Source: Gelatoporia subvermispora B
Lineage: Eukaryota; Basidiomycota; Agaricomycetes; Polyporales; Gelatoporiaceae
Assembly (NCBI GenBank): GCA_000320605.2
Contig: KB445816.1
Coordinates: forward strand, 250,601 to 272,559
Length of the DNA stretch: 21,959 nucleotides
Reading direction: 5' to 3'
Position 1 is the first letter of the stretch; every line of letters starts with the position of its first letter. Shown one piece after another: positions 1 to 21,959 of the stretch. The notes under the pieces are model-generated. The model searched no databases. It saw nothing but the letters and a program-made list of their open reading frames with translations, and was not told the origin of the DNA. The position numbers were made by a program, and so were the translations under genes.

Positions 1-1396
<1,396 letters not shown>

Positions 1397-2213
1397 ATAA
1401 CTGGAAATGATCTTCGACTGCATTGTAGGTTGTATTCATCACTGGTGTATCTTAGGTGTGCGCTTTCACATAAATTGTTGGAGTATGGACGACTAGTCAT
1501 ACAATGCCTGAGCTGGCACTTTGGAAGGAGACAACCGTCTCAGGCCCGCTGTCAGAACCGCACGAGGGCTTTCCGGGGATATACCGCTGGATCATGCAAC
1601 TTATGTGTACTTATCTCGTGCACAAAGGCAGCCTCCGTCGCTTCAGACCAATCATTCTAGATGGCACCCTGATGCTCTAGCCTCTAGCCAAGTAAACCTC
1701 ATGAACATGGAAAGCCAGTCAATTCACTGCAACGTGCATCGATCTATCTCGTCTTTGCTCGCGCGCCTGCGCCTTCATTCTGGCCACGTGGTCGTCACCA
1801 CATCGGGACTTGTGTGGTTGAAACTTGACGGCTTACAATTCACGAATAGCCTCATCGAGCAGCCGCACTGCGAGCATAGCACCGTACAGGCGACCATCCA
1901 TCTACTCATTTTTCCGTCGTTCATCTTCAGCTACTACGAGGCGAAAGGGGAGCTGCCACATGTCGGGAGCTGTCGTTGAAGTTTAAATTTTGACGGCTGG
2001 CACGCCGGACCCCCGGAACACCCTCTGACCTCGGTAATTCCGCTGGGCTTGGTTTCTGAGCCCTCCGCCGAACTTTCGCAGGAAGGGTCGCTCATAGAAA
2101 TGGTCGCATTGTGCAGTCACTGCCGCGGCCGTTCCCCTGTAAGCGACCTTCTACGCGCATGTGTCCCGTGGTGCCTCTCCGCGCAAACTAAAGGGCGATC
2201 CTGCTCAATCCTA
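1397..2213. other. Intergenic stretch with no supportable gene
   Basis: This lies between the MCM4 stop and the first recognisable FunK1-like codons. Short open frames exist, for example a 57-codon ATG frame starting near 1,504 and a 152-codon frame at 1,521-1,979. None has a recognisable domain, and I see no clear exon-intron pattern. It should hold the MCM4 3' UTR and possibly the lost 5' end of the following pseudogene. Confidence 0.5.
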
Positions 2214-4264
2214 GACTCGTGCACAGACTACCCACAGCCATCACCCGCACAAACCTGGCTGTGACAACGAAATTGCGGGAAATTTCGTCCGTGTCTCAGG
2301 TACAATACACGAATTCTTCGAGAAGATTTTGCATGTGGCCGATGCCAAAGTCCCTCGTAGACACAATGTCTCTCGGATCTTCCAGGATCTAAAAGCAACA
2401 ACGCAAGTGAATATGATCCTAGAAACCCTGGCGGGCATGTCTCACGATAGCGTACTACGACGTAATGACGTTTGAGTGACTTCATGCGTTTTTCTAGGTA
2501 CCAGGCTTGAATAAGCTCACCGAAAGTTTTTTGAAGGCGAAACGGATTAGCTTCATGGATACGCACAGCATCACAATCGGTTTTCCGTATGCCTCGTACA
2601 ACAAAGATGCTGATGGTTCGAAGCCGGACGTCAGCGCCACACTGCCTGGGGAAGTCTTCGAGGATCGACTGAAACTGACATGGAATCATGTCTCTCTGGT
2701 CTTTGTTATCATACCTGAGGAGGATCAAGATCCATTGTCCCCAACGAGGCAATTTCTCGGATGCCCGGACAAGGACACTCTGCGGCAACTTGTCATCAAC
2801 GCCCCGAACTTGATGGCTGCACACCTGAGCCTCTTCACATTTGTGATCGGAATTTACGACCCCTCGGCTCGTATCTATCGTTTTGACCGCGCCAGCTGTA
2901 TCGCATCCCCTCTGTTCAGCTATCGTGACGAGCCTGAGATTCTCCGCACATTTTTAGCACTTCGTCAACCCTCCTCACGGGGTCTGTTTCCGTGTGCTAG
3001 ATCCAACTGTAAAACTTGCTACGGATGAAGATCTTGATTGGGCCGACGAGACTCTGCAGAACAAGACCGGCAAGGGTCTCTCTTCGGAAGATCGAGCTAC
3101 CAGTCGATGGCTCGCGGTCTATTGCTTGGACAATGGACAGTGGTGTCCGGAAGCGGTTTCCAACGGTCAAGTTGCTGTTCTGGAATCATCACTTGTTCTC
3201 AAGATCGACAATCGTCTGGGCCACAATCGACGAGGTTTCAGGTGATATGTACACCCTCAAGGACACGTGACGACAATCTGTACGAGTTCATGCAACTGAG
3301 TACCTGAGGTTCTGGAAGCAGAAGTACCTCGATCCCGACAGACTCGAAGGACTACTGGAATCTGTCATCGAAGGTGACCTATCGCAGTGGGAACCGCGTC
3401 CGGATGATGGTAGTGAGTTCCTGTGTACTCCTATGTGCGACGCCAATTGAACGGTATTAGATCCATCCCAGGTAACTGACCTTAGCACGATGTCAGGGAG
3501 GGTGAGTGGCCGTGGGAAACCCGACGAATACTGTCATGTGGGTTTTGTGGTGGCTCCCATCAGCCGTCCGATTTTTCAAGTTCCGAAGTACGAAAGACAT
3601 GGTGGCCGCGATGCGCAGCACCATTAGAGGTACGATTCCACTCATCTTGTCTCTCACACGGTCTGATGATTGCATAGGTCACCGGACGGCACTCGTCGTA
3701 GGTCTATATCACCATGATACCAGTACAGGAAATGTGATGGCCATCAGTGGGAAGCAGAGGAAGAAACTTGGCTTACTGTCCGATTTTGATTGCAGTCACC
3801 GTATGCGCAGCATAGCTTTCAGAGCACTGCAAGGAACTGATGAAAACAATGTTGATCAGTTGACGCCGGAAGAACAAACTGTACGTTGTAGTGCTGTGTA
3901 CTCGATCAGCCGTACTGACAGATGTGCAGGATGCTCTGTACTTAAGGGCCCTAACGGTTCTTTGGAAGCCAAGAGAACCCAGAGCCTGATGGTACCTATC
4001 CCGCGGTCGCGGCGGTCCCTATCAACGCACGACGATGTTCTCGGGTTTTTGGGCGAAGCACTTGCTATGAACGGCTGGCCATGTGGTGACGAAGCTATCC
4101 AATTCGAGCTGCCAGAAGACGAGGAAGTTTCAAGATCACAAGCTACGACATTGCAGGTCCACAATGTTGACATTCAGAGGAAACATAGCCCAACGCACCG
4201 TGAACAGTCAAGTCGGGGTTTCCCCAAAAGGCGGCAATCCAGCAAAAATGGTGGCGGCCGCTGA
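2214..4264 (+). pseudogene. FunK1-type fungal protein kinase, decayed
   Basis: These are remnants of the basidiomycete-expanded FunK1 kinase family. In order: HEFFEKILHVADAKV (about 2,308-2,352); an intron at 2,452-2,497; then HLSLFTFVIGIYDPSARIYR (about 2,823-2,882), typical of the FunK1 N-lobe region; HFVNPP and LDPTVKLATDEDL (2,958-3,036); TIVWATIDEVSGDMYTLKDT (to 3,267); then, after an intron at 3,630-3,677, the catalytic-loop equivalent HHDTSTGNVM and the DFG-equivalent SDFDCS (about 3,780-3,795). Lesions: a frame change near 2,952-2,958; another between about 3,100 and 3,175; TGA at 3,268-3,270 where the family has the Trp of LKDxWR; and one extra T in the run at 3,572-3,576. No start codon was identified, and the C-lobe beyond about 3,880 is not recognisable, so the 3' limit is arbitrary. 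Some indels could be sequencing errors, but together with the nonsense codon they favour a pseudogene. Confidence 0.75.
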
Positions 4265-5037
4265 GGTCGTTGGCATGCGTTCCAGCACCCTCGTACACTT
4301 CCTATCGTTATTTACCAGGCCTTTTCTCGTCGTGTCTTACTCCTTGGGTTCGTTGAATATTCGCTCATTTTAGGGTCAGACTGCATTCTTGAACACGCTA
4401 CACATACCTGTAACACCGATAGCACTGTATGTACTGTTTATTGAGGCTTTAGAATACAACGTGCTGATTGTGGAATGAAACTACCAAATGTGACTATGCA
4501 TTCGAGTACTGAGATGAGCGAGAACGCGGGTGCGCTCAAGGATGAACGGTCAGACCAAGTTTCCGCTATAACTAAGAGGCATCGGACTAACATCTCACTT
4601 CGTACCTTCTCATCGTACTGCTGTTACATCGTAGACGCACCAGGTTTTCATTTTATGTATGACGAAGTCCACGACTGCTGCTGAACGAAGCGTCTAAACG
4701 ATCGGGACGCGCCTCTGTAATTCATCTAGATGGTACGTAGGGATACAATGTGTCTCCAGTGAGAAAGAAGTGCATAGGTATAGTGTATCGCAGCGAATTA
4801 CGACGAGGCGTGTTGTACAAGCAGTAAATGATCAAGCATACGGGTGTTCCGAAAAGCGACAACGAGAGATGTATAGTGCAGATGCGAACGACGAAGAGCA
4901 AAAATATGTCGGTGAAGAGATCCAGAGTTAAATGTACAGAGATCATCGCCACGCCCTCGGGGCTAGATGGAAGCAAAAGGCGAAAAAAACAGGGGAAGCC
5001 AAGGGCCAAGGAGTGGAGGATGCAGAGCTTAGTAAAA
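4265..5037. other. Intergenic stretch with no supportable gene
   Basis: This 3'-to-3' region separates the FunK1 relic and the transcription factor gene. It is less GC-rich than the gene to its right. A 69-codon open frame at 4,475-4,684 (+) and an antisense frame at 4,722-5,600 (-) have no recognisable content. The second overlaps the transcription factor's last exon in another frame and is a shadow there. Confidence 0.5.
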
Positions 5038-8000
5038 TCACCCAGTGTAGTATTTGTTGTATTCCGGCGCCCAGCCCATCGGAGCTTGCGCATGCTGCCA
5101 CTGTAGTATATGTGGATTCTGCATGGGCATCGTCTGCGGCGCCTGCTGGTACTCATGGCCCATTTGCGCAGGAATGCCATGGTCCTGCTTCCCGCCCTGA
5201 GCGTTGAATGAGAACTGCGGCTCGTGCGACGGCGTGGACATCGGCGGGCCCATGCTTCCTCGTGCGCTGCCCGTCGTGATCGGCGAGGGCGTGACAGTGT
5301 CGACCATCGATATGTTCTGCGCATGCGACATGGTGCCGGAGCTATCGTAGCCCGATGAAGGGGCGGGCAACTCGTACATGTAGTAATTCGACGGACTGGG
5401 CCCGCTGGCGTACGTTGTCGGGCTTTGCGCAGGTGGGGCGTAGTGAGTCTGATGTTGCGGCGGCTGCGGCTGGGTGTATACTGGGGCCTGCGTGGGTTCC
5501 GCGTATGTCTGATGAGTGTAGCGTTGCCGGTCGTCTTCGGGGGTGGAGTACTGCACTGGGTAGTCGTTAGTGCGCATTGTTTCGAACTGTGGAGAGCCAT
5601 TATGACTCTGGGGCGGCGGCGTCAAGAGCTCAGTGAACGCGGTTATAGGCGGCGGAACATGGGAGACAGGTGCAGCAGGCGGCGGTTGCGGTTGTGACGG
5701 AGGCGGAAGAGGCGGGGCGTTGACAGAGGTTGCCGAGACAGGCGTCGCGGAGGAGTGCCCTCGTTGGCGGACGGCAGGAGGGACGTGATTCGGGCGCACA
5801 CGTATCCCGACCGTCGGGTACTTCGTCTTCTCCCTGTCCTTCTCCTTGCTCCTCTCCTTGTCCCGCTTGTCGTCCTTCTCCTTCAGCTTCTTCTCAGCCC
5901 TCGATTTCGGCTCCGGTGCGGACGCGTCCCTGGTTGGCGCAGGCGCCGTGGGCTTCGGGTGGGGCGCGGGCCTCGGATGGTCTGTCTTCGACGCAACGGC
6001 GGCACCGACGAACGGAAAGCGGAAGTCGCCCGGCAGGTGTTCGCCCTCGGGCTCGAGCTCGCCGTGCTTGCGCTTCGCACCCGCAGCGGCGGCGCTCGCA
6101 TTGCGCGTGCGCGCGGCCTCCGCCTTGTGCATCATGATCTCCACAATGCGTATCGCCTCCGCCCTGCTGCGCTCGGCATGTGCGCCCTCGACGCCGCCGC
6201 GGGCCGCGCCGAGCCGTCGGAGGATCTCCACGGCGGACGCGACGCTCTTCATCGCCTCGCCCGTGAGCATGTTCGTCGGCTGCTGCACGAGCGCGTGTGC
6301 GCACACGACCGCCGCCTCGAACAGCGTCCGCCCAAAGTCGTAGAAGTCGAATGCGGCTGGCCGTGTGTCCTGCCATACACGGTGCAGCACGCGCGACGCG
6401 AAGATGATCGCGTGCGCCGCGCTGATCGTCCCGAAGAACGCCTGGTGTCCGGGCCGCCCCGTGTTCAGGCTCGCCTCCTTCAGGAAGGGCAGGTACAGCT
6501 TCAGGATGACGCGGTTGGCGAGTATGACGAGTTCGCACTGCTGCGCGAGCAGGAAGGGCGACCCTGGAGACGAGCCCGTGGTGAGATGCGAAGGGTCCTG
6601 GCTCATGTCCAACCGGAACGCCTCGGGGAGCTCGCTCAAGAACGAAGTCACGTTCGACTCGAAGCCTGCCGCCTGGTCGATGGAGAGCTCGCCAGGGTCG
6701 TCCGAGAGCGGATCTCTGAACGTTTGTTTCTTTACATTTTTCACCAACTGAGCCAGTCTGCTCGCAGTAAGCACAACGCGGTCAGCGACATCGCGAGTTG
6801 AGTCACAGCCGGGGGACAGCACTCACCTGCACTTCAGGACAAAGTACGCTGTCCCTTTTTCGCTGCCTTCCCCGCCCGTCGATGCAGGCAGCGTCATCGA
6901 GGACGGGCTGAACTGCTCCTCGTCGACCTCGGCAGGCAGGCGTGTCGTGAACGAGTTGTCCGCAATCAGCGGCGGGTGACCCATGCAGTCCGACACGAAT
7001 CTGCCCTGCATCAATCCCGCCCAGCTTACAAGGACGGCTGCAACACTCACAAATCGTAATAAAACACATCCCACCACACGCGCCTCCGGGTCTCCGCGTC
7101 GAACACGCTGTACACGCCCGCCGCACAGTCGTCCGGGTCGTGCGCGAGGCCCATCATCCGCGCGACATTGATCATCTTGCCCACCTGCAGTGCCGCACGG
7201 TCAGCTCCTCACCAGACTCAGCCCTAAGCAGAGGAGAAGACCTACCAACGGGAACACGCCCTGTGCGACGCACGTGCGCCCGTCGTGCAGCAGGTACAAC
7301 ACCTGCAGGAGCATCGCGACGACCGCGTCCAGGTCGTACGGCGCCGTCTTCTCGAACACGCCCAGCGCCTGCTCCGACAGCGCGTGCAGCGCCGCCGGGT
7401 CCGCCTCCGCGCCCTCCGCCCCGAGCGCACCCAGCGCAAACGCCGCGCTCGCAACCGCGAAGAAGCTCAGCGTCGGGTGCGGTCCGCCCGGGATCTGCGC
7501 CTGCGCCTGCGCCCTCTGCGCGCCCTTCTTCGTTGCCGCGCCCGACCCAAAAATATCCCGCGCCAGCTCTGCCATGTACGGCTTCCCGCGTGCCTGGAGC
7601 TCGGCCTGCGACGCCGGGATCGGCGCATCACCGGCACTCTCGCCCCACGCAAACATCGCCTCGACGCGCTGCACAAAGTGGCGCACGTTGAAGCACGGGT
7701 GCAGCAGCATCGTGTCGGCCAGCGCGCTCAGGAGCCGTGGCCGCGCTGAGGGCGAGGGGAGCCGCGCAAGCAGCGCCGGCGTCACCTGCGGCGGCGATCC
7801 CTCGCGCGCGTAGAACGCCTCGATCGGGACCGGGGGCACAAACTGTGCCGCGGTGTACGGCGCGCTCGTGGCGCCCGCGGGCGAGGCGGGTGGAAGTGCG
7901 CCTGGTGAGGGTTCCTTCTTGACGCGGCCCGAGCCCGCTGTGTGCTGGCGCCCTCCGCTTGCTGCTGGGTTCGTGCTTGTGATAGGGTCGACAACACGCA

Positions 8001-8440
8001 TGCGCGGGTCGATGCCGAGCTCCTCGAGCTCGCCGAGCCATATGCTCGCGACGTCCTCGAGGCTGATGACGACGGAGCTGCCTGCCGCGCCCGTCGCGAG
8101 GAGTGCGCGGTCGAGCGGGGGCGCGCTCGTCCCCGCGAAGTGGATTGCGAATGCGGGCGCACCCGCGCCCGCGGATTCGGGCTGCACACCAAAAGGCGCC
8201 TTGAACTGCGCGGGGGAGCCGGTGGTGAGCTGTTCCAGCGTGCCCTCGACGTTCATGAGGCGGTTGCGTAGGGATTGCACGTCGCTGCGGGAGTCGTTCG
8301 GTTTAGGGCGGGCAGTGGAAGGATGGGACGTACACTTTCTCTGCCGCTGCGGCGGAGTAGATGCAGCGCGCGGTAGAGTCGCGCTTGAGGCAGGAGCCGC
8401 AGGGCGTGCGGCGGTCGCAATTGAGTTTCAGCCGCTTGCA
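5038..8440 (-). CDS. Zn(II)2Cys6 fungal-specific transcription factor, first exon missing
   Basis: This is a nuclear DNA-binding regulator of the Gal4-like binuclear zinc cluster family. Exons (minus strand) are 8440-8334, 8284-7246, 7184-7051, 7000-6827 and 6757-5038. Introns are 49-69 nt, and the exons total 1,058 codons with stop. The first exon opens in the middle of the zinc cluster: CKRLKLNCDRRTPCGSC supplies five of its six cysteine-type ligand positions up to that point, ended by a Cys shortly after. The first Cys and the start codon should lie in an upstream exon that is not present. After a short linker (QSLRNRLMNVEGTLEQL, coiled-coil-like) comes the fungal transcription factor domain, with RRRVWWDVFYYDLFVSDCMG spanning an intron and GHPPLIAD. 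The C-terminal third is low complexity: a Lys/Glu/Asp-rich run near 5,830-5,900 and a Pro/Gln/Tyr-rich tail ending YNKYYTG. The target genes cannot be told from sequence. Very high GC explains the long antisense shadow frames. Confidence 0.88.
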
Positions 8441-8601
8441 CTGCAGAGGGGAGGATGTGAGTTCAAGCAAGTGATGAGCAAGTCAGAAGCAAACTGGACG
8501 CAGGCACGCAGGGAGATGAACGAGAGAACATCAAAGAGAGGTGGGCATCCCAGTGATGGGTAATAATGTGTGTGGGGCGGGGAAGCGAGGATCGAAGCTG
8601 A
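8441..8601. other. Stretch upstream of the truncated transcription factor gene
   Basis: On the minus strand this should hold the 5' intron and first exon of the transcription factor. The acceptor CTGCAG at 8,446-8,441 is clear. No frame in the next 160 bases contains the expected Met...Cys-x2-Cys start of a zinc cluster, and the stretch then ends abruptly at the duplicated sulfite reductase segment. Confidence 0.6.
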
Positions 8602-8807
8602 GGCCGTTCTCGATAAAGCAAGTGAAGTGGTGCTTGCCGCTCGCGTCTGTGTGCCAGCCGAAGTCGTCGATGTTGCGGTCAAATGTGAATGGACGTGCGG
8701 GCTGAAGTTGGTATCCGAGCAGCTTCTCGACCTCGCCCTTGAAGACGTCGAGGCCCATCCTATCGATGGTGTATTTCAAACGCGCGTTCTAACAACCGGT
8801 CAACACT
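8602..8807. repeat. Duplicated sulfite reductase exon fragment (copy 1)
   Basis: These 206 bases match 9,804-10,009 in the same orientation, with a single mismatch (the codon read as Thr here is Ala in the other copy, in PF[T/A]FDRNIDDFGW). The copy starts inside the ferredoxin-like exon of the MET5 homologue and ends a few bases into its upstream intron. It includes the splice acceptor but no other part of the gene. It therefore cannot be expressed as sulfite reductase. Sequence on both sides is unrelated to the flanks of the other copy. Confidence 0.95.
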
Positions 8808-8994
8808 GGTGCGGTCGTGCCGGTGAAGCTCCGAAAATGTCCAGCGGATATGGCCCAGGGTGTCCGGAACACCGCGAGATGGAGTGTTGATCTACAGCGA
8901 GCGTGCGGATATACATTGCGGCGGATGACTACAGATACATTGTGCCCTATCTTCCTATACAAAAGTAACAACAGATCGTGTTCGCGGAGTCCCT
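8808..8994. other. 3' flank of the sulfite reductase gene
   Basis: This is a short stretch between the duplicated fragment and the MET5-type stop codon at 8,997-8,995. It presumably carries the 3' UTR and polyadenylation signal of that gene. I see no open frame or motif worth calling. Confidence 0.4.
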
Positions 8995-9803
8995 TCATGA
9001 CGATGCGACGGCAATCTCGCCGCCCATCTTGTCGTACCAAGCCTTGCCGGAAGTTGTCGCAGCGATGTAGCCCGCACGGATGACGAAGTCGCCGAAGTGC
9101 TCGCCTTCGTGCCTCTCCAAGGCGTAACGTTTGATCATTGGCTTGAGAATGGCGAGGATCTCCGGCTCCGTCACCGTTTCTAATCGAATCGGTCGGTGAT
9201 AAGCCTCAGTCCCATGATACTGAGCTCTCCACACCTCTGTAGATCTTGTTCAGTCTTTGACCGTGGTAGCCACCACCGAGCAACATCAGATATGTGCCAG
9301 GCGCTTTGCCCCGACAAATGCAACCTCTGGGGAAAACATTGAGATGATAATTATGTGAAGCAGACTACGACACGTACCTGCGACATATGGACGTGCGCAG
9401 CCGTTAGGACAGCCAGTCATACGCATGACGATCGAATCGTTGCGCAGACCGTTCTCCTCGCAGATTTTTTCTACCTTGTCAATCAGGATGGGGAGGTATC
9501 GCTCCGATTCCGCCATTGCGAGACCTGTACACAACATTGAGCACCCATAATGAGCCTGACAAGATAAATACTCACCGCATGTCGGGAACGCAACGCAAGC
9601 CGATGACGAGAGCCTGAGAGCAGATTGCGAGAGGTTATCCAGCTTGTACTGCGCCAGCAGATCCTTGATCTGCGGCAGATCCTCCGTCGCGACGTCAGTA
9701 ACGACGAGGTGCTGGTTCGCCGTGAGGCGGAAAGTGCCCTTGTGCACCTTCGCGATTTCCCGCAGGCCAGCCTTAAAGTCGCGGTCGGGTTCGTCCTGGA
9801 TAC

Positions 9804-10009
9804 GGCCGTTCTCGATAAAGCAAGTGAAGTGGTGCTTGCCGCTCGCGTCTGTGTGCCAGCCGAAGTCGTCGATGTTGCGGTCAAATGCGAATGGACGTGC
9901 GGGCTGAAGTTGGTATCCGAGCAGCTTCTCGACCTCGCCCTTGAAGACGTCGAGGCCCATCCTATCGATGGTGTATTTCAAACGCGCGTTCTAACAACCG
10001 GTCAACACT
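9804..10009. repeat. Sulfite reductase exon segment that is duplicated (copy 2, in place)
   Basis: This is the native location of the 206-base segment also found at 8,602-8,807. Here it is continuous with the rest of the exon (9,990-9,576) on one side and with the intron after the microexon on the other. Confidence 0.95.
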
Positions 10010-10041
10010 TTCTTCGTAGCGCAAATTGAGAATCTACATAC

Positions 10042-10048
10042 CTTGCGG
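10042..10048 (-). other. 7-nt microexon of the MET5 homologue
   Basis: Seven bases, CCGCAAG, lie between acceptor TATAG (10,049-10,050 is the AG) and donor GTATGT (from 10,041). Flanking introns are 10,117-10,049 (69 nt, donor GTAAGT) and 10,041-9,991 (51 nt). Splicing through it gives NRE-D-RK-NARLKYTIDRMG in frame, which matches the conserved family pattern of DRK followed by ARLKYT. Skipping it would lose the frame. Confidence 0.8.
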
Positions 10049-10893
10049 CTATAAATGCAATTGCAAAGGGAGATGATCAGCGGCTACACCACAGGCTGAC
10101 AGGGCCGTCGAACTTACTCCTCTCGGTTTCCGTTATCCCTCTGGACAAGCATGATTTTCTCCGCGACCTCGCAGCCCTGCTCAACAGTACAGAAGCCGAG
10201 AACATCACCAAGACGGGGGTATGTCTTCTTGTTGCCGTGGGTCACACCCATACCACCGCCCGCAGTGACGTTGAAGCCAGCAAGCTCACCCTTCTCGTCG
10301 ACGATGGCAATGAACCCGACATCATTAGCGAAGATATCGACATCGTTAGTAGGAGGGACTGCAACTGCCACTTTGAACTACACGCGTACAACCTGTCAGA
10401 GAGATCGCTCACAAGAGCGATAGGCAACCGACCTTGCGGGGAAGATAGAATTCGCCGTACAGCGGCTCTACGTCCTTCAAGGCATCACCAGCGACAAGCT
10501 TCTTGTCAAGCCAGATCTCATGGTATGCAGTGGTCCGGGGGAGCAGCCGCTCGCTGACCCTCTTCGCGAACTCGTATACCTGGGCATGGAGCTTAGAGAG
10601 CGAAGGGATGGCAGAAACGATGACGTTCCTGTAATGGAGCGAGGATGAGCTAGATGCTATAACCAAGGTGTGATCGGCTTTACGCACCTGTTCACATCAC
10701 CGCACGCCGCGAGGGTATCGAGCAGCGCTCTGTTAATGTCCTGGATAGCGGACTTAAGGTGGCGCTTGATGACTCCGTGGAACTGGAACGTCTGCCGCGT
10801 CGTGATCTTGAACGTCCCGTTTCCGTGCTCGTCCGCGATCTGGTCCATCATGAACCACTGGTCGGGCTTGCACACGCCACCGGGCATGCGGAC

Positions 10894-11821
10894 NNNNNNN
10901 NNNNNNNNNNNNNNNNNNNNNNNNNNNNNNNNNNNNNNNNNNNNNNNNNNNNNNNNNNNNNNNNNNNNNNNNNNNNNNNNNNNNNNNNNNNNNNNNNNNN
11001 NNNNNNNNNNNNNNNNNNNNNNNNNNNNNNNNNNNNNNNNNNNNNNNNNNNNNNNNNNNNNNNNNNNNNNNNNNNNNNNNNNNNNNNNNNNNNNNNNNNN
11101 NNNNNNNNNNNNNNNNNNNNNNNNNNNNNNNNNNNNNNNNNNNNNNNNNNNNNNNNNNNNNNNNNNNNNNNNNNNNNNNNNNNNNNNNNNNNNNNNNNNN
11201 NNNNNNNNNNNNNNNNNNNNNNNNNNNNNNNNNNNNNNNNNNNNNNNNNNNNNNNNNNNNNNNNNNNNNNNNNNNNNNNNNNNNNNNNNNNNNNNNNNNN
11301 NNNNNNNNNNNNNNNNNNNNNNNNNNNNNNNNNNNNNNNNNNNNNNNNNNNNNNNNNNNNNNNNNNNNNNNNNNNNNNNNNNNNNNNNNNNNNNNNNNNN
11401 NNNNNNNNNNNNNNNNNNNNNNNNNNNNNNNNNNNNNNNNNNNNNNNNNNNNNNNNNNNNNNNNNNNNNNNNNNNNNNNNNNNNNNNNNNNNNNNNNNNN
11501 NNNNNNNNNNNNNNNNNNNNNNNNNNNNNNNNNNNNNNNNNNNNNNNNNNNNNNNNNNNNNNNNNNNNNNNNNNNNNNNNNNNNNNNNNNNNNNNNNNNN
11601 NNNNNNNNNNNNNNNNNNNNNNNNNNNNNNNNNNNNNNNNNNNNNNNNNNNNNNNNNNNNNNNNNNNNNNNNNNNNNNNNNNNNNNNNNNNNNNNNNNNN
11701 NNNNNNNNNNNNNNNNNNNNNNNNNNNNNNNNNNNNNNNNNNNNNNNNNNNNNNNNNNNNNNNNNNNNNNNNNNNNNNNNNNNNNNNNNNNNNNNNNNNN
11801 NNNNNNNNNNNNNNNNNNNNN
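10894..11821. other. Assembly gap (928 N)
   Basis: This is a run of unknown bases inside the sulfite reductase gene. The protein on each side (VASVAVYSSY before, [13 protein letters not shown] after) leaves roughly the length expected for the intervening flavodoxin-like region. The gap size is therefore plausible, but its content is unknown. Confidence 0.99.
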
Positions 11822-12283
11822 TACATGTGTGTACGACGAGTACACGGCGACGCTCGCGACGTACACGTCTCCGTGGTTCATCGCGTACAAGCCGACGTCC
11901 TGCTTGCGGCGGCTTGGATCGGACGTATTGCGTGCAGAGTAGGGCAGGGTATCGAGAACAAGGATATTGATGTTAAGCTTCGACGCAATTGCGTGGTGCA
12001 AGCCAGATGCGCCGAGGTCGTACGACCACGCATCAGAGCCGATGATCCAGCGCGATCGTGCGTTCAGGTGCGAGCGGAGAGAGAAGACGCGTTCCGCAGC
12101 GACTTGCGAGGGTTTGAGCTCCTCGAGCGCAGCGATGATCTCCTCGCCAACCTTCTTGCTCTTGACGCCGTCGTCCTTGACAAGGACCCATTGCTGAGCA
12201 GTGCGTGCAGCTCAGCCGGTATAGAGGCATCCTGAAGTAGCTCCTGCACAACCGAGACGAGCTCTGCGCGCTCTTCAAACTCT

Positions 12284-12309
12284 CCGCCATCAGGAAAGAC
12301 ACCCTAATC
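12284..12309 (+). repeat. Left terminal inverted repeat
   Basis: Read inward on the plus strand it begins CCGCCATCAGGAAAGACACC. It matches the reverse complement of 19,301-19,326 at 20 of 26 positions, including an uninterrupted 11-mer. Confidence 0.75.
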
Positions 12310-12330
12310 GGGTAGTTCCGTGCCACCATA

Positions 12331-12342
12331 TGTAGCGCCCGT
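12331..12342 (+). repeat. Left subterminal inverted repeat TGTAGCGCCCGT
   Basis: This exact 12-mer matches in inverted orientation at 19,170-19,181. Similarity extends outward (CGTGCC…ACC…TGTAGCGCCCGT on both sides). Subterminal repeats are typical binding sites for accessory or transposase proteins in CACTA-like elements; that role here is inferred. Confidence 0.75.
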
Positions 12343-12500
12343 AATCTCCATAGTCGCGCACACCGCTACTGGGAGCTATTCAAGACTACAGTATCTAACT
12401 TATCGTGTATGTAGCTAGATGTAGTCGACATGATACCAGAAACCTCTACCTCTGTCACGCCACTCCCTGCAAATATCGTACAAGGTAGAGAACCTGAGAA

Positions 12501-13344
12501 CTAAGCATGGGACCCATTCAAGCCCGGCTCGCACTTGCTCATGGCATCAGCAAGCAACTGGTCCAGCATGCAGATGTTCTGATGGAACTCCTGCATGTTG
12601 AAGCGAGTAGACCGAGCCACCATCCATCCCATCACTCTCTCGAGAATACAACCACAGGCATTGGTGAACTCCTCGGCGGTCAGAGGGCGCTGCTCATCCA
12701 TCGAGTTTGCCAGCACATCGATTGTGTGGCTTGCGAGCACACGCATTGCGTGGGCGTGCGTCGGAATGTTCGTGAGCGGAGGCACTAGGAGTGATATGAA
12801 CAACATCCAATAAGTCATCAAATATAACGAGATTTCTCGGGCTTTCACTTACCGAACGTGTTACTCGGTGCCACAGCTCTGACCAAGCTCTCCAAGGTCA
12901 TCATGCCGGCAATCTCCTCAGCATGGTGCAACTTCTTGCCAATACTACTAGTCTCCTCCGAGTCACCACTGTCAGCAGAGTTGGCTGCGTTCTTCGTGAT
13001 AACGGCGTTGGGTTTGATGGAAGGCGGTGTCATGTTCTGTGTGGTAGTAGTGGTGGAGTCGGACCGAGCTCGCACAGTCGCGCTGGCCGGCTTGATGCGC
13101 TCTCCTTTGACAATTTCTTCAAGAGCCTGAGTGGCTGCCGCAGTTCACACAGTATCGAGTCTCCCTGTCCCTCTGTAATATGTATGATATCAAACGCTCA
13201 TCAGTGCCCTGATCGTGTGGATCCCGACAAATCAAAACTGCATATGACTACATACCCGTATTCTTCCCCAGGCGGCAGAGCCTGAAGCAGATCGATCAAG
13301 GAGTTAGACCACTGGACAGCGACTGCGTTCAACTCGGTGGACAT
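12501..13344 (-). CDS. Unknown small protein encoded in the transposon
   Basis: I do not recognise the family. The start is ATG at 13,344 (MSTELNAVAVQWSNSLIDLL), with the first exon ending at a GTATGT donor near 13,255. The second exon reads PPSIKPNAVITKNA… and ends at 12,853. A clean 68-nt GTAAGT intron (12,852-12,785) follows, then a last exon 12,784-12,501 (VPPLTNIPTHAHAMRVLASH … SKCEPGLNGSHA, stop). The product is about 200 residues, with a Ser/Thr-rich middle and a helical C-terminal half containing three Cys. No signal peptide or membrane segment is seen. The acceptor of intron 1 is uncertain: candidates near 13,083 or 13,127 give different phases. It lies just inside the left end of the element, reading toward that end, in the same direction as the transposase. 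It may be an accessory factor of the element or an unrelated passenger. Confidence 0.6.
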
Positions 13345-13508
13345 GATGAGTGTTCAGATAAGGGTGAGAGACAAGGCAGCGTACACATGCAGCTTGCCGA
13401 TGTCCTCAACTCCGACTATTATCTCCGAAGGTGTCGAATTTGGTGAACAAAGACACCAGGTCAATTCAAAGTCATATCCTTGCTTGCATTGATGTCCAGA
13501 TCGCATTA

Positions 13509-13583
13509 CAGTGAGCAAATATCGAAACCCTACCAAGCCCCGTCATTTACTGATCACTGAGTAAATATCGAAACTCTACAAAG
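13509..13583. repeat. Two imperfect direct repeats at the transposase 3' end
   Basis: 29-mers at 13,509-13,537 and 13,555-13,583 match at 25 of 29 positions with a 46-base period. On the minus strand both read TTTCGATATTT(A/G)CTCA. The second unit encodes the last residues of the transposase (FRYLLSDQ); the first lies beyond the stop and would still encode FRYLL. This looks like a partial tandem duplication of the terminal coding segment. Confidence 0.7.
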
Positions 13584-16500
13584 TCCTGATGTCTTAAGTA
13601 CCAATTAAACAGGAACTTCTTACTCTTTTCTAACACCGTGTCCGATGTCCAGCTCCAGTCCATTTGCGAGCCCCACACAGGAATCAAGTGGCAGCTTCGC
13701 AAGATGTCGGTCAACGGAATGACCGTTGCATGTTGTCGATGCTGACGTGTCGACCGTGTGAGCATGTACATCGCGGTAGCCTCATCGCGTGCATGGAAGG
13801 GGGTAAACCATTCGACATACGCCAGAGGAATCATTTGAGTATATGACGAACTGAGGCCTGCTGCGTGGCATACAAGTTCTGGAATTCGAAATATTGCTCG
13901 AACTTGCCCGACCCGCATGCCTGTCACAGACCCACAGAGCAATATTGATCAGCACACCATGAGTTTCGCAGGTTGAATGGATGACTCACCATCAAGACCG
14001 CTCCTCTGCGGAATCCGACGTGAATCTTCTATATCGCCGCGTCCCAGACTCTGTGTCCTCACGATTACCGTCGCAAAGTACGCTGGCACAGCAGCCTGCA
14101 AACCTCGACTTGGGCGGGCCGGATATGCCTGAATGGTGTCAATCGTTGGTTTGTTGATGAGCGACACTTGAGGTACGTGCGCCAGCTTCAACTTGAATTG
14201 GTTGTATACTGAGTACCTACTGCTCTCAATGACGATGAGCAATCTCTCTGCATCACGGCGTCGGCTCATATTGGATCCAGTACTGCTTGAACTGCCGGCA
14301 ACTCTCTGGCAGTACTCTGCTACACACCGTGTGAAGTCAGTAGCTCCGAATAACTGCACTAAGTCCGTCACACTCGTGCGTGGCATCGGGCACATCTTGG
14401 CAATCTTGAACCCTCTGGCAAACTCTTCGTCATCCTCTGGCTTCTTCTGTGACTGTACTTCCTTCGCAACTGCAGCGCGGCTCTCTGGCAGCTCACTCTC
14501 GGCATCTGATTCCACTTGATCTGCTTCGTCTGCCTGCCGCTGCTCTTCAGGGCGCCTCATTCCTGTCTTTGTTATCACCCATCGAATATATGAGTCTTGA
14601 CGATCTATCGCCTCCTGCCGCTGAAGCCATGAGGCCATTTGGCTCGTGTAATTCGATTTCTTGTTGCTTGAACCGTAGGCAATCTTGGCGAAGTCGATAT
14701 GCAGGCGTTCTGGACTCTCGGTACTGTACCCGTCTGTGGTTCCCAGCTCCTGGATCGAGTGTGCGTAGTGGTGCATTGAATGCACCTTTGGTATGTTGAA
14801 GTCTGTCCGGATTCCTAGCTCAAGGAAGACTTCTTTGTACTCGTGGAAACGACTCCATGCGTTGTCAAGCTCCTGCAGAGAATTGTCTAAATGGATTTCG
14901 AAGTGTGCATAGTGGATGAAATCGAGAATGGCGCACACCGCACGAGTGACGTCCAGATCCGCGCCACCGGACAACACACCAGCAAAAACTTTCTCCATGT
15001 TCTTGTACTCGGTACCCGTCCATTGCGATATTAGGCTGATGCCTTTCTTGAAATGGCGCAGCTGTGGATGCCTCGGCACGGATCGGAAGCGACGGTCGAC
15101 TTTAGCTTTGCCGCCGTCAAGACAGCTCGTCGCCCAAGAGACGAGATGGTCCTTGAATACGCCCTTGTGGAGCTGATGGAGAATATCGGGTGTGAGACTG
15201 CCGAAGATGTCGGCCATGGGTAAGTCCTTCCAGAAGGGGTTGACAGCACGCAGGCCCCACGCTTCGAAATTGGGTGGCTTTGCACCCTGGCATGCTGATT
15301 CTAACACGCTGCAGATTTCTATCGCATCTCGCATTGGCGAGATCACTGGGTCACCACGCCGCTCACGAGGAACGCAACACTTGGGGCAGAAGCTCTCACG
15401 GCAGCATGCCACGAGACACTGCTCCGGGTGATCGGCAATATATGCAGCAAGAATTGGGAACACACGCCGCACGCGTCCGTCTGCACATACCATCTCGACT
15501 CCTTCCCTCCCCGCAGCAATCAGAGGCTCTAGGAGAGAGCCCATGCATCGGTGAAACAGCCGGTATCCCTCCATGGGACGTTCAGCCTTTGAAAAGCACT
15601 CAAGCTTAGACACTGGCAGGTACCCAATGAGGACCGTGGCGTGTTGTGAAGGTTTGCGCCGTGTTGACTTCTCGATATTCCCAATGCTAAGATAGACAGG
15701 CCAGGCTGTCTTGTTGCCGCTGAACTGGGAAAGGGAAGTCTTGTCAGATGCGAGTATAATAGGTGCAATCGTGGCACCCTTCGGAAGGCGCGTCTGTGTT
15801 CGCCACCACCAATCGCCTGTCCACATATTGTCATACAGGCGATGTGTTCCTTCCTTATCACTATACAGGTGCTCGGGTGCGTACTTGATATGGTCTTTGA
15901 ATTCCGGGTTGCCAATCAGCTCACGGACCACTTCCACTGGATCTCGCTTCCAGAGCTCCAGCACCTCGCTTCGTCGGCTACCGGTCTCGTCAAGTTGATC
16001 GCCGATTGCTTTGAACCTTTCACAATGCCACTCGGCACTTCGAGGTAAGCAGTCAACCTTCTTGAAGAAGGCGTACTTATTGAGGAACAACAACCGCATG
16101 CGATCTCGGGTCTGGGTCCAAGCGCTGCCAGTGAGCATGCAATCTTGATGCCAAATTGATGATTACTCATGATGCGTAGCCTTAGAAACTCATCAATAGC
16201 TGTCTGACTGAGTCCGCTTTTCAAAAGCCACTTTGCTAACTCCCATTCTTCCAGATTTTCGAACGGGGCCCATGGTGCGTCCTCTTGCTTGCATTGATGC
16301 TCATGATGCTCATCAAAAGAGGTCCTGCCCTCACAAGTCGCTATCCCTGCAGCTGCCGGAAAGCACTCCACCCATGGCTTCTTGGGAATGACACCGACAT
16401 CGAAGTTGTCATCTAGGATATCCTCGACGTACACCTGAGGGTGCTTTGGCGGCGAAGGCTCGGGACCTGGAGCAGCTTGAGAAACAGCAATGTCGTCGTC

Positions 16501-16716
16501 CAGCCCGAGGTCTACATCAAGGAGGGTGGTGTCCATCGGCCCATCAGAGCCCATAGGAGACAAGTCGGCCTCTTCCTGCATACTGGTAGGACGCCGCCGT
16601 GCATCCAGTTTGACACGTTGGGCCTGCCGACAAGCTGGAGTCTGGGAGATGTGAGAGCGGAGCCCTTTAAGCGTAGGTTTTTCGCGGTGACAGTATTCGC
16701 AGGTAAACATGCTCAT
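13547..16716 (-). CDS. Plavaka-type transposase (CACTA/EnSpm superfamily)
   Basis: This DDE-type transposase is thought to cut and paste the element. It is about 1,010 residues long, in line with the family. Exon 1 starts at 16,716 with a C2H2-like zinc finger ([20 protein letters not shown]…C), then an acidic linker and [20 protein letters not shown]. The main exon (about 16,111-13,990) carries [61 protein letters not shown] and [15 protein letters not shown]. After a 69-nt GTGAGT intron (13,989-13,921) the last exon (13,920-13,547) has [23 protein letters not shown] and the conserved ending [16 protein letters not shown]. The main frame has no stop over about 700 codons, suggesting a young copy. 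The exon 1/2 junction near 16,166-16,112 is unresolved: the only nearby GT donor compatible with the conserved FLRLRI does not give the right phase with either AG. This means either a non-consensus splice or a one-base error. Confidence 0.92.
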
Positions 16717-16861
16717 CTCTACTACTCAACAGGAACGAGCAGCCTTGCGCCTGACTCAGTCCAGATGCAAATGACATAGGCAAGTCTCAGCGTTCACCGG
16801 TGGCGGCTCGATCATCCTGCAGATTTTGCGCGTCAGCCGCTGTCAGCCTGCGAGCCTCTCA
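16717..16861. promoter_or_regulatory. Divergent intergenic region, likely shared promoter
   Basis: About 145 bases separate the start codons of the transposase (16,716, minus) and the DUF6532 gene (16,862, plus). Head-to-head genes this close probably share regulatory sequence. No specific TATA or operator motif can be assigned with confidence. Confidence 0.5.
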
Positions 16862-18992
16862 ATGGCACCACACCGCCGGTCGTCAGGTCTGGCACTATCA
16901 GACGATGAAGAGGAGCTTGAAGTTTTATTGCTGCCATCAAAACGACCGCGGAAAGCAACTGAGAAGAGAAAGGAATCAGGTACGAAATTCAACCAAACTC
17001 AGACATCACGGCAGCTCATAGGCGGCCTCCCGCATACATTCCAGAGGAGGAGAGTCACGAAAAACTGCAACGTCAGCTGGATCGACTTACGAAGAAACAT
17101 GCAAACCTCAAGCGGACGCTGCAAACTCAGAAAGCCAGTGTTGCGATAACTCAAGAGCAGGAAGAGCACGACCTGGATGACGACGATGAGTTGTTCGAAA
17201 GTGAAGAAGATGATAATGAGCCTTCGGTAATGAAGACCGGCTCTTTTGACTCCCAGGTATGTGTCACTCCTTTCCAAAGTAGTGTGCATTCATAGCTTGG
17301 GTTTGCAGTTCTCGTCATCCGGGATCATCGCCACCTTGGCACCAAAGCCGAAGACACAGCATCGACTTTTGCACCGCAGTGGTGACACTCCGCAGCAGGA
17401 GGAGACCTGAGGTTCAGACGTCACTAGTGATCATGATACTCGGCGGTCGCCAAGTCCGCTGAGTTGCAGGAGCCATCACGGTGACTACACCTATCCACCA
17501 TCGTCAGTCTCACGGGAAGCTCACCACACTGACATGTTGCTGATTGAGTCTTTTTATAGTGATGAGCGCCATGAACCGCAAGAACAGCAAGATTACACCC
17601 CCTCGATGGCGCCCACTACTATCTCTCGTAGTAGTTCTCAAGGCTCGACAGTACCCAGTGCACTATCTCGCAGCAGCTCTCAAGTCTCAGCCGCTCCCGC
17701 TCTGTCTCGCAGCGGCAGTGCTTTGGTAGGCCAAGGCTCGGCGGCATTGACTCTGTCACGCAACAATACACAACAGAGTTAACCAGACTATCACTATGCC
17801 ACCAAGGGGCATGGCAAGCGGCGCAGCGCCACATCAGACCCCCACTCGGCAGGGGAACCTCGGGGCCGTGCAACAACAACTGCAACCAAGCACAAAGTGC
17901 CCCAGTATCGCAATGGACAACTACCATCCGGGGATCCAAAAGCGTCGGACTACGAGCCAACAGTTAGTCGGCTGATCCTCAGTACAATCCGTATCTGGGA
18001 GGTGTGTCTCTTCACAATCAACGCGTTTCCCGATCAGGACCAGCAGCTCGAATGGGCACGAGAATGCTGGGAGTCAGCGTGCCGGACGGCAGGGAAAGAT
18101 TACGAGCTGGTGGACCGTATTCTGGGATTGGTGAGTGTGTTCCCTGGTGTCCGAGGCCAGCCTACTGAATGCTGTTCTGATGTGCGTGTGTAATCACGTG
18201 GAACAGGTCCGTGAGCGAGGCGCAAATGCCCGGGGAGGATTGCGTGATCTGGCCCACGCGCTCATGAAGGACTTCGGGTTCAACAAACAACTGTCCGCGG
18301 AGACGAAGATCCAGAACAGCTCACGTCATCATCAGCTGCTGGGTGGGTCAGATGACCCTGGCGAAGCCATTTTCTATTTCAAGGTACGAGGCAGCACCTT
18401 GCGATTGGACGTTGGAGAGCTAATGTACTACTCTACAGGATATTGAACAGAAGAAAGGGTACTGGCAAAACGACGCTGTCATGAATCTGCTCCAACAAGG
18501 GTTCTTCTCGAAGAAGGCAGCGAGCAGTGGGATGGTACATCAGCTGACCTTTTGGCCACTCCCTCTACCACTACTGGCTATTGTGATCGCAACGGTGAGT
18601 GACATGTATTCTCATCAATAGTGTTGCGCCTGCTCACGCACGCGCAGTTACATGTCTGCATCAAGGAATGGGCAGAAGGGTATCATCAGTCGATCATGTT
18701 CACGGAGGGCAATGTCAAGCCTCTGTACGAGCACTACCTAGCAGCGTTAGAAGATTACAACACGATCAATTCAGCCGTCGTGACAAAGCTGCGTACAAAG
18801 ATGTACGACACTTTGCGGTATGTTGGCTCTCGTGCTGGCCGGTACTGTGAGGTGCGACTGAGGTGCTAAATTTGCAGTCATCGTGCCGGGATGGCTGCTG
18901 TGGTATCGACGAAGGGGCTCTCACAGGAATTCCGTCGGCGTGCACAAGAGGAGCTGGCAGGGCGTACAGGGGATACTGATTCAGACTCGTAG
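16862..18992 (+). CDS. DUF6532 protein with coiled-coil/acidic N-terminus, carried by the transposon
   Basis: Exons are 16862-16979, 17015-17256, 17309-18130, 18207-18383, 18439-18594, 18648-18817 and 18878-18992; all phases agree. The N-terminal part is charged: LALSDDEEELEVLLL and a basic KRPRKATEKRK, then a likely coiled coil (LQRQLDRLTKKHANLKRTLQ) and an acidic run DLDDDDELFESEEDD. A Ser-rich repeat segment follows (LSRSSSQ/LSRSGS units). The C-terminal half is DUF6532, a basidiomycete domain of unknown function, shown by FTINAFPDQDQQLEWARECW, RGANARGGLRDLAHALMKDF, LTFWPLPLPLLAIVIAT and IKEWAEGYHQSIMFTEGNVK. Two in-frame stops interrupt the N-terminal part. TGA at 17,408-17,410 could be removed by a 36-nt in-frame GTGACA…CAG intron. 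TAA at 17,780-17,782 has no clean splice around it, and no in-frame ATG follows until within the domain. This copy may therefore be inactive. A DNA-binding partner of the transposase, like the second protein of plant En/Spm elements, is a reasonable guess. Confidence 0.78.
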
Positions 18993-19300
18993 AGTAGCCC
19001 GCACAAGGCGCTTGATTGCATGTAACTGTATTTCTGTAGTGCTGAATGAAGCCGCGTTGGCGTATTCATGGCTCAAATGACAGTGCGAGTGAAAATATAT
19101 TGTTTTGATAGAGAATTACGGTAACTATAGCGCAGGCATGTAGCTTAGAGGCAAGGCTACCTGTGCCTAACGGGCGCTACAGAGGTGCGGCACGCGGCTA
19201 CTCAATCCTATGGGGCTGCGGCGGGCGCCTACGTACACTACATAAACCGGGACTTTGCTATGGGGCTACGAGATCACTGTAGGTTACTGGACCCAATGTA
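18993..19300. other. Right subterminal region of the element
   Basis: There is no gene here. The stretch is rich in short GCTAC/GTAGC-type words (GGCTACCTG, GCGCTACAG, CGGCTACTC, GGGCTACGAG and GCGCCTACG between 19,155 and 19,272). One of them belongs to the 12-mer inverted against the left end. Such clustered short repeats resemble CACTA-type subterminal repeat zones. Confidence 0.5.
19170..19181 (-). repeat. Right subterminal inverted repeat ACGGGCGCTACA
   Basis: This is the exact reverse complement of 12,331-12,342. It lies about 145 bases inside the right end, against about 47 inside the left end, so the right subterminal zone is longer. Confidence 0.75.
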
Positions 19301-19326
19301 GACAAGGCTTTTTTTCCTGATGGTGG
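19301..19326 (-). repeat. Right terminal inverted repeat
   Basis: Read inward on the minus strand it begins CCACCATCAGGAAAAAAAGC and pairs with 12,284-12,309 (20 of 26 positions). It directly abuts sulfite reductase coding sequence at 19,327. Confidence 0.75.
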
Positions 19327-19566
19327 ATATGACCGAGGGTGAACTCTGGGCTGGTGGCGAGCTGGCCCAGCGAAGGCACGAGGTCGGAGAGTTCGAAATT
19401 TCGAGCTGCTCACCGAAGAGATGTGACAGGATCTTCGTGTACGACGATTCGTGCTTCGGAACATGAGGGGTCGCCACAGTGCCGGCGGCAATAGAAGCAG
19501 AGGAGCCAAGTTCCAAGCGCACAGATGGGTTCTGAGTGGAAGCGCGCTGGAGGAGCTTCAACACGT
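19327..19566 (-). pseudogene. MET5: Sulfite reductase beta subunit (MET5-type), upstream part, cut off by the transposon
   Basis: This is an exon of the same gene as at 8,995-12,283, reading toward the element. It starts after a TGTAG acceptor at 19,567: DVLKLLQRASTQNPSVRLEL, then HESSYTKILSHLFGEQLEIS, a frame break near 19,383-19,392, then LVPSLGQLATSPEFTLGHI up to the element edge. The YTKIL..LFG…SPEF..G pattern is the segment that, in MET5 proteins, precedes the acidic linker and the W(L/I)IGSDAWSYDLG region found at the left of the element. The frame break corresponds to one missing or two extra bases. The remaining N-terminal part (about 280 residues in the yeast protein) was not found further right. 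Confidence 0.8.
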
Positions 19567-20227
19567 CTACACCCTCCAGTACTCATTGTACGCGCGAACT
19601 CAACAATGTGGTGCGCTGGTCACGTGCGTTTCTCACACTTACTTTTTGTCTTATACTGTGTTATGGGCGTGCGCGCGTGTGGGTTCCCACGGTCTAAAAG
19701 ACGGCCTGCCAATCGCGCAGCGTAGACCAACAAGCCGCGGGAATACCGACCTATGCTGGCGGCCGTACTGCCGCTCGAACCCATTGAGGATGTGCACAAC
19801 CTCGACCATGGCGCTGATACTGACCAAGTCCTACGATAAGCTTTCGGTGATGATCCCCGCGAACAGTTACCTGTTATGCCACTACTTGGAGCCCTGCTGC
19901 ACCATCGTCCTGAAGGGGACAATTGATACTGATCAGCTCATCATCGTGTACGGAGATATACAATTAGAGAATACGTAGTAACAAATGGTGGAATTGATAA
20001 ACAAAAATGTGGGGTCGAAGTAGGGAGCGACTGAAGATTGAGGGAGTGGGGTGCTTGACAGAATGAGATGACAGTCGGTGGACGCCGAGAATAGAAGTGA
20101 TAGCCATGAAGAGGGCACCTTCCTCCTGCCTGGACGTAGCAGTGCCATCACACCGAGATGGTATTGAAGGCATCTCTACACATGGTGACCATTAGCAGAC
20201 GAAGACTGAGTAACGAGATATTGAAGC
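19567..20227. other. Stretch with no supportable gene
   Basis: The N-terminal exons of the MET5 homologue should lie here on the minus strand. I can read only a weak possibility (a short RTMVQQGSK-like string near 19,890-19,915, followed at once by stops), which is not enough to call. The plus-strand 175-codon frame at 19,451-19,978 has no recognisable content and overlaps MET5 sequence antisense. Confidence 0.4.
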
Positions 20228-21195
20228 TCACGACTTTATGATTTCTTTGGCGGCTCCGTCGACAATATCGGCTTCGGTAGGGAATATGCTATTCTCTGCG
20301 ATGTGCGCAATCGTATCCACCAAGCAGTCGTGCAAGCCTGCGTAACGGCGATCCTGAGTGACCCGTTTAAGAAGCGGGGAGACTTGAGAGAAGGCGAGTG
20401 GCTTCTCAGGGTGCAGGAGCCGGCGGGCAACAATGTCCCACCAAATGTTCCCCCATGACGACATGCACTCCTGGTGCGACTGGCAGGCAGCAGATCTTAC
20501 GGTAATTGGGGCATTCTGAGCCATTACCCACCTCTCATGCTCGAGTTTAGCCTTGGCGTGCATGAGAATAGTAAGAACCCGATAATCGATGGACGCCACA
20601 TCAGTGTCGGTGACTTCTCTGACGTCCCACCTGAGAATTCGCGCAACAGCGTCCGGTAACCACTCCGGTATGTTGAACTTGCAGGCAAGTTGAAGCTGGA
20701 CTGCCGGTGCTAGAGAAATGCCGGCCAGATTATGGACTGCCCACTTCTGCGCCCCTGCTATCTGCCATCGCTGGCTGATCTCTAGGATGTTGACAAGTGT
20801 GGTTATGGAGCGCGGAGTTACACAGGTATATCTGATCGATGAGACGATTAGTAGTCTCGTGAAAGGAGGGCGTCATGCACTTGCCTTTGATATAGATATT
20901 TCATGAGATCATCGAACTGAAACCTCGTCGTGTCACGCACGAGCACGGCAGTATCATCTGTCATGCCGTTCTTCTCAGTTGGTAAATGAGTGTTCAACAG
21001 CTCATCGAATGCCTTGGAGTGCATGGTGAGTAACATTCTGTGGATCTTGTACAACATGTTTTCCACCTGGTTGAGACATTGGCGTTCAGCTGCCAGCAAC
21101 ACAGTGGAGATAACATTTGATCTTACTAGAAGAATGATGGAACCGTCCTCGAAGTAATAAAACTGATGGCGGCATGGTCGATCAAGCCCCCGCAT
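20228..21195 (-). CDS. BTB/POZ domain protein
   Basis: This is a protein of the large basidiomycete BTB/POZ family, whose domain mediates dimerisation or recruitment to other complexes; the specific partner is unknown. Exons (minus) are 21195-21127, 21066-20885 and 20831-20228, 285 codons with stop. The domain opens FYYFEDGSIILL, then VENMLYKIHRMLLTMHSKAF, GMTDDTAVLVRDTTRFQFDD and LMKYLYQR. After the second intron come TTLVNILEISQRWQIAGAQK and QLQLACKFNIPEWLPDAVAR, the usual helical follow-on in these fungal proteins. Intron 1 (21,126-21,067) is GT-AG. Intron 2 (20,884-20,832) has donor AG|GCAAGT, so it is GC-AG, with CTAAT upstream of the acceptor as a possible branch site. The frame is clean through all three exons. 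The ATG at 21,195 is plausible, but a short upstream exon cannot be excluded. Confidence 0.85.
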
Positions 21196-21959
21196 AGTGT
21201 AGTATCTGCCTTCAGAGAAGAGAGAAGCTGGGTGGATGATGGGTATCTGGGTCAGGTTGGACTGGCTCTAAAAGCCTTGAGGCTTGCACAATATTGTCTT
21301 ACCGAACTTCTCTCAACTCCGAACTCCCCTCAATTCGTGAGAGAATGCGCGTGTGCACAGCTTGACATGTAAGTATATTTTGCCGTACCATGGATATCAG
21401 AATTGTGGGTTCTAGCACATCTTCGGATCATTTTTGAGAGCACGCAACCCCACCCTTGACGCCCTTGTGTGATGCCAGGGCTGGTAGTGCCGCGGCCAAG
21501 GTAAGGCTCAGCACGGTGACAACAGGCGGCGGCCTGACGTGAAAATAATTCAAAGGATCTACTTTTTTTCAAAGTCTAAAGCATTGCGAGGGCACAGCAG
21601 TTTACAATGCGAACATTCCGGGAATGCTATGTAGGCGAGTCGACAGAAAGTCTGAGCTTGGACCACTCGCGCAGGTGATCGGGATTCCGGATAAGGCTCG
21701 TACAGGACGGCCATGCAAGACATGTACCAACATTTGACATTCACTGCGTATACTCGACCAAATTGGAGCTGAGTATCCTAACTTCTGCAAGGGGACCAAA
21801 TGCATGCAAGCCCTGCTCCGGAGACGATCACTTGTGCATTCAGACCAGCGAATAAGCGATCTGCGCTATCCTTCCCCGCTGGTGTAGCGCCCCAGTGTTG
21901 CGCAGGCAGGGCTGCTGGTGCCTGCGCGAATGGGAAAACAGACGTCGACGTTCCGAGCG
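21196..21959. other. Upstream flank of the BTB gene, no supportable gene
   Basis: Only short open frames with no recognisable domain occur here (60-80 codons on the minus strand at 21,330-21,805). Near the right edge TGTAGCGCCCC (21,883-21,893) matches 10 of 11 bases of the transposon's subterminal word. A 7-bp inverted repeat ACCAGCG/CGCTGGT lies at 21,844-21,850 and 21,878-21,884. Confidence 0.4.

Follow-up and report, generated by a model that had tools for sequence, protein, structure and literature searches.

Plavaka transposons are a lineage of the CACTA/EnSpm-Mirage-Chapaev-Transib group, and their transposases carry C(2)C and H(3-4)H motifs between the second D and the last E (PMC12730594). 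The PlavakaB elements of this lineage have CATCA..TGATG termini and generate target-site duplications of 2 or 3 bp (PMC12730594). A Plavaka-related deletion has been described in Marasmius oreades (PMC9674265), and the uncharacterised domain DUF6532 appears with Plavaka and others among the additional domains of two Ganoderma genomes (PMC8955403). In this study, we examine a stretch of 21,959 nucleotides from Gelatoporia subvermispora B (assembly GCA_000320605.2, contig KB445816.1, here C26:250601-272559; "the window"), in which a Plavaka-type element interrupts a sequence for MET5, the assimilatory sulfite reductase beta subunit. G. subvermispora is a white-rot polypore, and the genome searched comprises 37.7 Mb in 52 contigs.

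A preliminary description of the window had held that a seven-kilobase transposon splits a sulfite reductase gene, and that the resulting loss of the enzyme leaves either another intact copy or allele or a natural sulfur auxotroph. The transposon was borne out by empty sites, by the ends of the element and by a PF18759 transposase domain. The loss of the enzyme was not. We conclude that a Plavaka element very probably inserted, at a CC-GC-GG site and with a presumed 2-bp duplication, into an already broken C26 duplicate of a MET5 gene that is still intact on contig C4. The biology of the insertion is ordinary: the transposon is of a known type, and the sequence that it entered is a defunct duplicate, the genome having an intact copy at another place. 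The tempting claim that a core sulfur gene has been lost is hereby corrected.

Insertion limits and empty sites

The element is a DNA transposon of 7035 bp with PlavakaB termini, located at 12288..19322 (no strand assigned) and ending in CATCAGGAAA..TTTCCTGATG. Comparison of window 12200-19400 with its own genome gave nine matches, namely itself, four that form two empty sites, and four other Plavaka sequences. At the empty site C18:564658-564821 the flanks are 100% and 99% identical over 88 and 76 bp, and at C4:532146-532310 they are 95% and 96% identical. Both the search and the alignment show base 12287 directly adjoining base 19325 at the two sites, and therefore the inserted stretch is 12288-19324, which is the 7,035-bp element plus 2 bp. 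Thus, empty sites within the same assembly supply a base-level insertion footprint for an element of PlavakaB type.

The left terminal inverted repeat, CATCAGGAAAGACAC, lies at 12288..12302 on the plus strand, and the right one, CATCAGGAAAAAAAG when read inwards, at 19308..19322 on the minus strand; counted from CATCA, 12 of their 15 bases are identical. The preliminary description had correctly placed the edges at inverted repeats, but its limits of 12284-19326 were too wide by 4 bases on each side. In the same way, the flanks do close in frame as it proposed, but its closure loses 6 bp (two codons) that are present in both empty sites. Its reading of the coding sequence also stands: by tblastn with MET5 of Obba rivulosa (P0121), minus-strand coding halts near 19325 and restarts near 12287 in the same order and direction, and at C18 and C4 the two pieces directly adjoin. 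Continuity of coding, however, holds at the insertion point only; the frame changes near 19385 and again near 12193, and an N gap spans 10894-11821.

MET5 copies

The reference for the MET5 copies was Obba P0121, of 1442 residues, compared by tblastn. The C26 sequence is made up of an upstream part at 19325..19580 (minus strand, residues 335-419, with the frame change near 19385) and a downstream part at 8998..12287 (minus strand, residues ~421 to 1442), the latter broken by a 928-base N run at 10894..11821. Its sister copy on C18 likewise begins at residue 335, so that residues up to ~334 are absent from both, and a frame change at residue 399/400 is also common to the two; the piece ending ...SPEFTLGHI is in a different frame from the piece just upstream. 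Upstream of the MET5 part, C26 and C18 have in common an unrelated sequence (window 19581..21843, 97%; no strand assigned) that includes an open reading frame (ORF) with a BTB domain. N runs occupy the same part of the gene in both copies (928 bases on C26 and 1643 on C18). The frame change near 12193 is an extra one in the C26 copy, and the C18 copy has a stop opposite residue 1160.

Unlike MET5 genes, then, the interrupted C26 copy is a truncated, frame-broken pseudogene. The lesions common to C26 and C18 predate the insertion, because the C18 site is empty; since the truncation and the frame change are among them, the insertion is not the cause of the loss of the enzyme. The second intact homologue that the preliminary description proposed to look for was found on C4. 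C4:530980-535681 spans Obba residues 1-1442, and the first long ORF of this copy is 88% identical to P0121 over 97%. Its two stops fall only opposite gaps in the query and presumably lie in introns, and from its sequence we judge this copy to be intact and full-length. Another intact copy, one of the alternatives raised earlier, is thus present, and auxotrophy is not expected because of it.

In the history that we propose, an ancestral MET5, intact today on C4, would have yielded a copy that was truncated at its N-terminus, broken in frame and attached to unrelated sequence upstream. This broken copy would then have been duplicated to give the C26 and C18 versions. Plavaka, to which family membership in the CACTA-like group would assign a cut-and-paste mechanism, would then have entered the C26 version at CC-GC-GG, duplicating 2 bp.

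The three copies do not resemble one another evenly along their length. Sites that set one copy apart number 17 for C4, 1 for C26 and 0 for C18 in segment 11825-12287; 23 for C4, 8 for C18 and 3 for C26 in 9871-10399; 6, 4 and 3 in the same order of copies in 19325-19580; and 8, 7 and 7, again in that order, in 10400-10847. In segment 8862-9876 they number 46 for C18, 10 for C4 and 6 for C26. Within window 8862-12287, C26 resembles C18 in one stretch and C4 in another. This pattern could have arisen by gene conversion, from near-identical copies mixed together in the assembly, or because C18 has changed faster in one part. C26 and C18 were rejected as alleles, their homology being limited to window 8602-21843; the 30 kb of C18 around the homologous part holds no match to window 1-8601. 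A direct copy of 206 bp at 8602..8807 (minus strand), which repeats 9804-10009 with one mismatch and adjoins the pseudogene at its downstream end, is either a real tandem duplication or an assembly error. At the other boundary, where the C26-C18 homology ends, window 21842-21959 holds the beginning of a dispersed repeat that also occurs at C26:40403 and C5:2200010. Elsewhere on the contig, at C26:35646-35840, lies a 195-bp piece of MET5 with 94% identity to C4; it derives from the region of the gene that the N runs leave out.

Alternative explanations

That the element knocked out a working MET5, leaving the strain a sulfur auxotroph or reliant on another allele, would agree with flanks that are MET5 coding sequence and that stay in frame when closed exactly where the element inserted. 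We regard it as exceedingly improbable, since the C26 copy is without residues 1-334 and changed in frame, both lesions being common to the empty C18 copy, and since an intact MET5 is present on C4, on which ground auxotrophy was rejected. Scarcely more probable is a scaffolding artefact in which the assembly would have placed a contig of transposon sequence inside one of MET5. Such an error might be suspected from the N runs in both pseudogene copies, but neither junction contains N, and the junctions coincide with the ends of the inverted repeats and with the exact base at which both empty sites close. An inverted repeat at the edges, together with flanks that are adjacent at C18 and C4, therefore indicates neither a chance nor a scaffolding join, and we rejected the artefact on the exact closure at the two sites.

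The target-site duplication requires closer weighing. The preliminary description found none, which is probably wrong. Measured against the empty sites, the footprint is the element plus 2 bp, with a presumed left copy GC at 12286..12287 and a presumed right copy GT at 19323..19324 (both plus strand), one transition apart. From these letters, a GC/GT duplication of 2 bp in which one base later decayed is likely. The letters agree just as well with an insertion that made no duplication, in which the element would be 12287-19323, ending in CCATCA..TGATGG, and one base of the flank would have changed; duplication is also missing from three of nine full-length copies examined of a 182-bp element described below. 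We nevertheless consider this parse unlikely, since published PlavakaB families create duplications of 2-3 bp (PMC12730594), an element on contig C46 has a CG duplication in the same genome, and the other six of the nine 182-bp copies, including that in the C18 copy (AA), have duplications of 2-3 bp. Elsewhere in this genome, 2-bp duplications thus accompany insertions whose ends resemble those of the element, namely the C46 element, the 182-bp element in the C18 copy and C13:815101-822238. Several points do weigh against our preferred account of a Plavaka insertion with duplication into a dead MET5 copy: the two duplicated bases are not identical, the parse without duplication accounts for the letters just as well, three of the nine miniature copies lack a duplication, the data used are those of the assembly, with sequencing reads outside them and an N run within the pseudogene, and the three MET5 copies resemble one another unevenly, so that their duplication history is perhaps no simple tree.

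Transposase and classification

The transposase gene lies at 13547..16716 on the minus strand. Exon 1 runs from 16716 to ~16162 and is followed by a short intron; exon 2 carries the Plavaka domain; and exon 3, after an intron at ~13990-13925, continues to the stop at 13547, the intron limits being set by eye from the sequence and from tblastn with Obba P0001. The C-terminal exon crosses one in-frame stop, which by the same means falls inside a plausible GTGAGT..CAG intron, and the gene is apparently intact. The minus-strand ORF at 13952-16162 matches PF18759 (Plavaka) with 423.6 bits (cut-off 26.3; E 6.9e-127) over profile positions 1-324 of 325. When this ORF of 737 residues was aligned with 16 relatives chosen from 120 listed, D228, C259-C262, H461-H465, E482 and E485 were invariant and D140 nearly so. 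These residues, among which we presume the catalytic D and E, fit the arrangement of D, C(2)C, H(3-4)H and E that PMC12730594 describes for Plavaka.

The element shares with PlavakaB, as described in that source, the PF18759 domain, the CATCA..TGATG termini, a 2-bp footprint and an Agaricomycete host. These termini begin at 12288 and finish at 19322, the same ends as fixed by the empty sites; PlavakaA, which requires TGT..ACA, was rejected on this basis. It differs from PlavakaB in that the two copies of its presumed target duplication are unlike in one base, and in the addition of a divergent DUF6532 gene. Unlike TET-carrying PlavakaB, it has no TET/JBP gene that we could find; the Tet_JBP search gave no match in the whole genome, but its controls were equally silent.

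The top-ranked relatives of the transposase are the Obba rivulosa Plavaka proteins P0001 and P0002, 65% identical over 96% and 89% of the query, which nonetheless belong to different families from it. With 61 of 97 candidates scored, the 34 transposase matches in its own genome included no other long one above 53% identity, and short pieces of 69 and 58 residues were 70% and 59% identical. No close second copy of the element was seen in this genome; at the DNA level, the closest long match after it, on C3, has 67% identity, and shorter ones of 55-111 bp are 71-82% identical.

Subterminal repeats were located at 12331..12344 (plus strand, TGTAGCGCCCGTAA) and at 19168..19181 (minus strand, TGTAGCGCCCGTTA). 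The exact sequence TGTAGCGCCCGTWA occurs in the 37.7-Mb genome only at these two positions. With up to one mismatch allowed, the whole genome held 17 matches in total, fewer than a reversed-pattern control (29). ORFs also point to a possible third small gene in exon pieces at 12501..13345 (minus strand), with tentative limits.

A second gene with DUF6532

The second gene of the element, at 16862..18992 on the plus strand, has several introns, matches the DUF6532 profile (PF20149) and corresponds to the public model CERSUDRAFT_100178 of G. subvermispora B (452 residues), to which it is 100% identical over the 278 residues compared. An unspliced reading holds two in-frame stops, both of which are omitted by the public model. 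The gene is transcribed divergently from the transposase gene and sits between ends that are fixed by the empty sites.

PF20149 matched 22 places in the genome, which were merged by eye into 13 loci; the 34 transposase matches were likewise merged into 10 strong and 17 weak Plavaka loci. DUF6532 lies within 20 kb of nine of the 10 strong loci, in every case divergently, and within 10 kb of eight; the strong locus at C3:1005492 has none nearby. Conversely, eight of the 13 DUF6532 loci are divergently placed within 10 kb of a strong locus, and five are not within that distance. With the window pair left out, the fractions become 7/9 strong Plavaka loci and 7/12 DUF6532 loci. Under uniform placement, 8 of 13 loci would fall this close with a probability of ~8e-16, a figure that includes the pair in the window, from which the idea for the test came. 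Only one of the 17 weak loci has DUF6532 nearby, and it is not divergent. A rough control for the clustering of repeats, made by eye, placed 2 of 38 reverse-transcriptase matches within 10 kb of strong loci.

Element ends were sought at three of the nine other strong loci. At C13:815101-822238 both genes are enclosed by good candidate ends (12/15 alike) with a TA duplication, and at C13:931606-939131 the ends are weak (10/15) with a GC duplication; the scan at C3:1005492 gave nothing convincing. A search for relatives of the DUF6532 protein among 3229 candidates returned two proteins, one of them identical to the element's own, and neither has a precomputed transposase domain. Its predicted structure, from two sequences, had a mean pLDDT (predicted local distance difference test) of 37.7, and the model is unusable.

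On balance, DUF6532 is probably the standard second gene of Plavaka elements, divergent from the transposase, and it may be a counterpart of TNPA, a protein of plant CACTA elements, that binds the subterminal repeats. This is a testable proposal for the role of an uncharacterised domain. The main text of PMC12730594 holds no DUF6532, its sole word with the initial letters DUF apparently being an author's name in the reference list. As judged from a limited literature search, this association is the only part of our results to exceed the published record.

Related elements

Two further insertions with similar ends bear on the same sequences. Contig C46 (13,901 bases) matches window 21053-21959 at 100% identity, except for a 12.8-kb insert at C46:660-13425, for which the window, at 21527-21528, is the empty version. 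The insert has ends CATCAGCAAAT..ATTTGCTGATG of the CATCA..TGATG type, and its CG duplication becomes three bases if the first C of the element is counted as flank. Either a haplotype or a very recent duplication may account for C46.

The other is a palindromic element of 182 bp within the C18 MET5 pseudogene, at C18:567814-567995, with PlavakaB-like ends CATCAGGAAAAT..ATTTTGCTGATG. A search with it gave 82 matches, and at least 39 of these, itself included, are near-full-length at 79-100% identity (40 of 81 candidates scored). The nine full-length copies considered above come from ten loci that were cut out, one partial copy being dropped. These copies define a miniature 182-bp family with PlavakaB-like ends.

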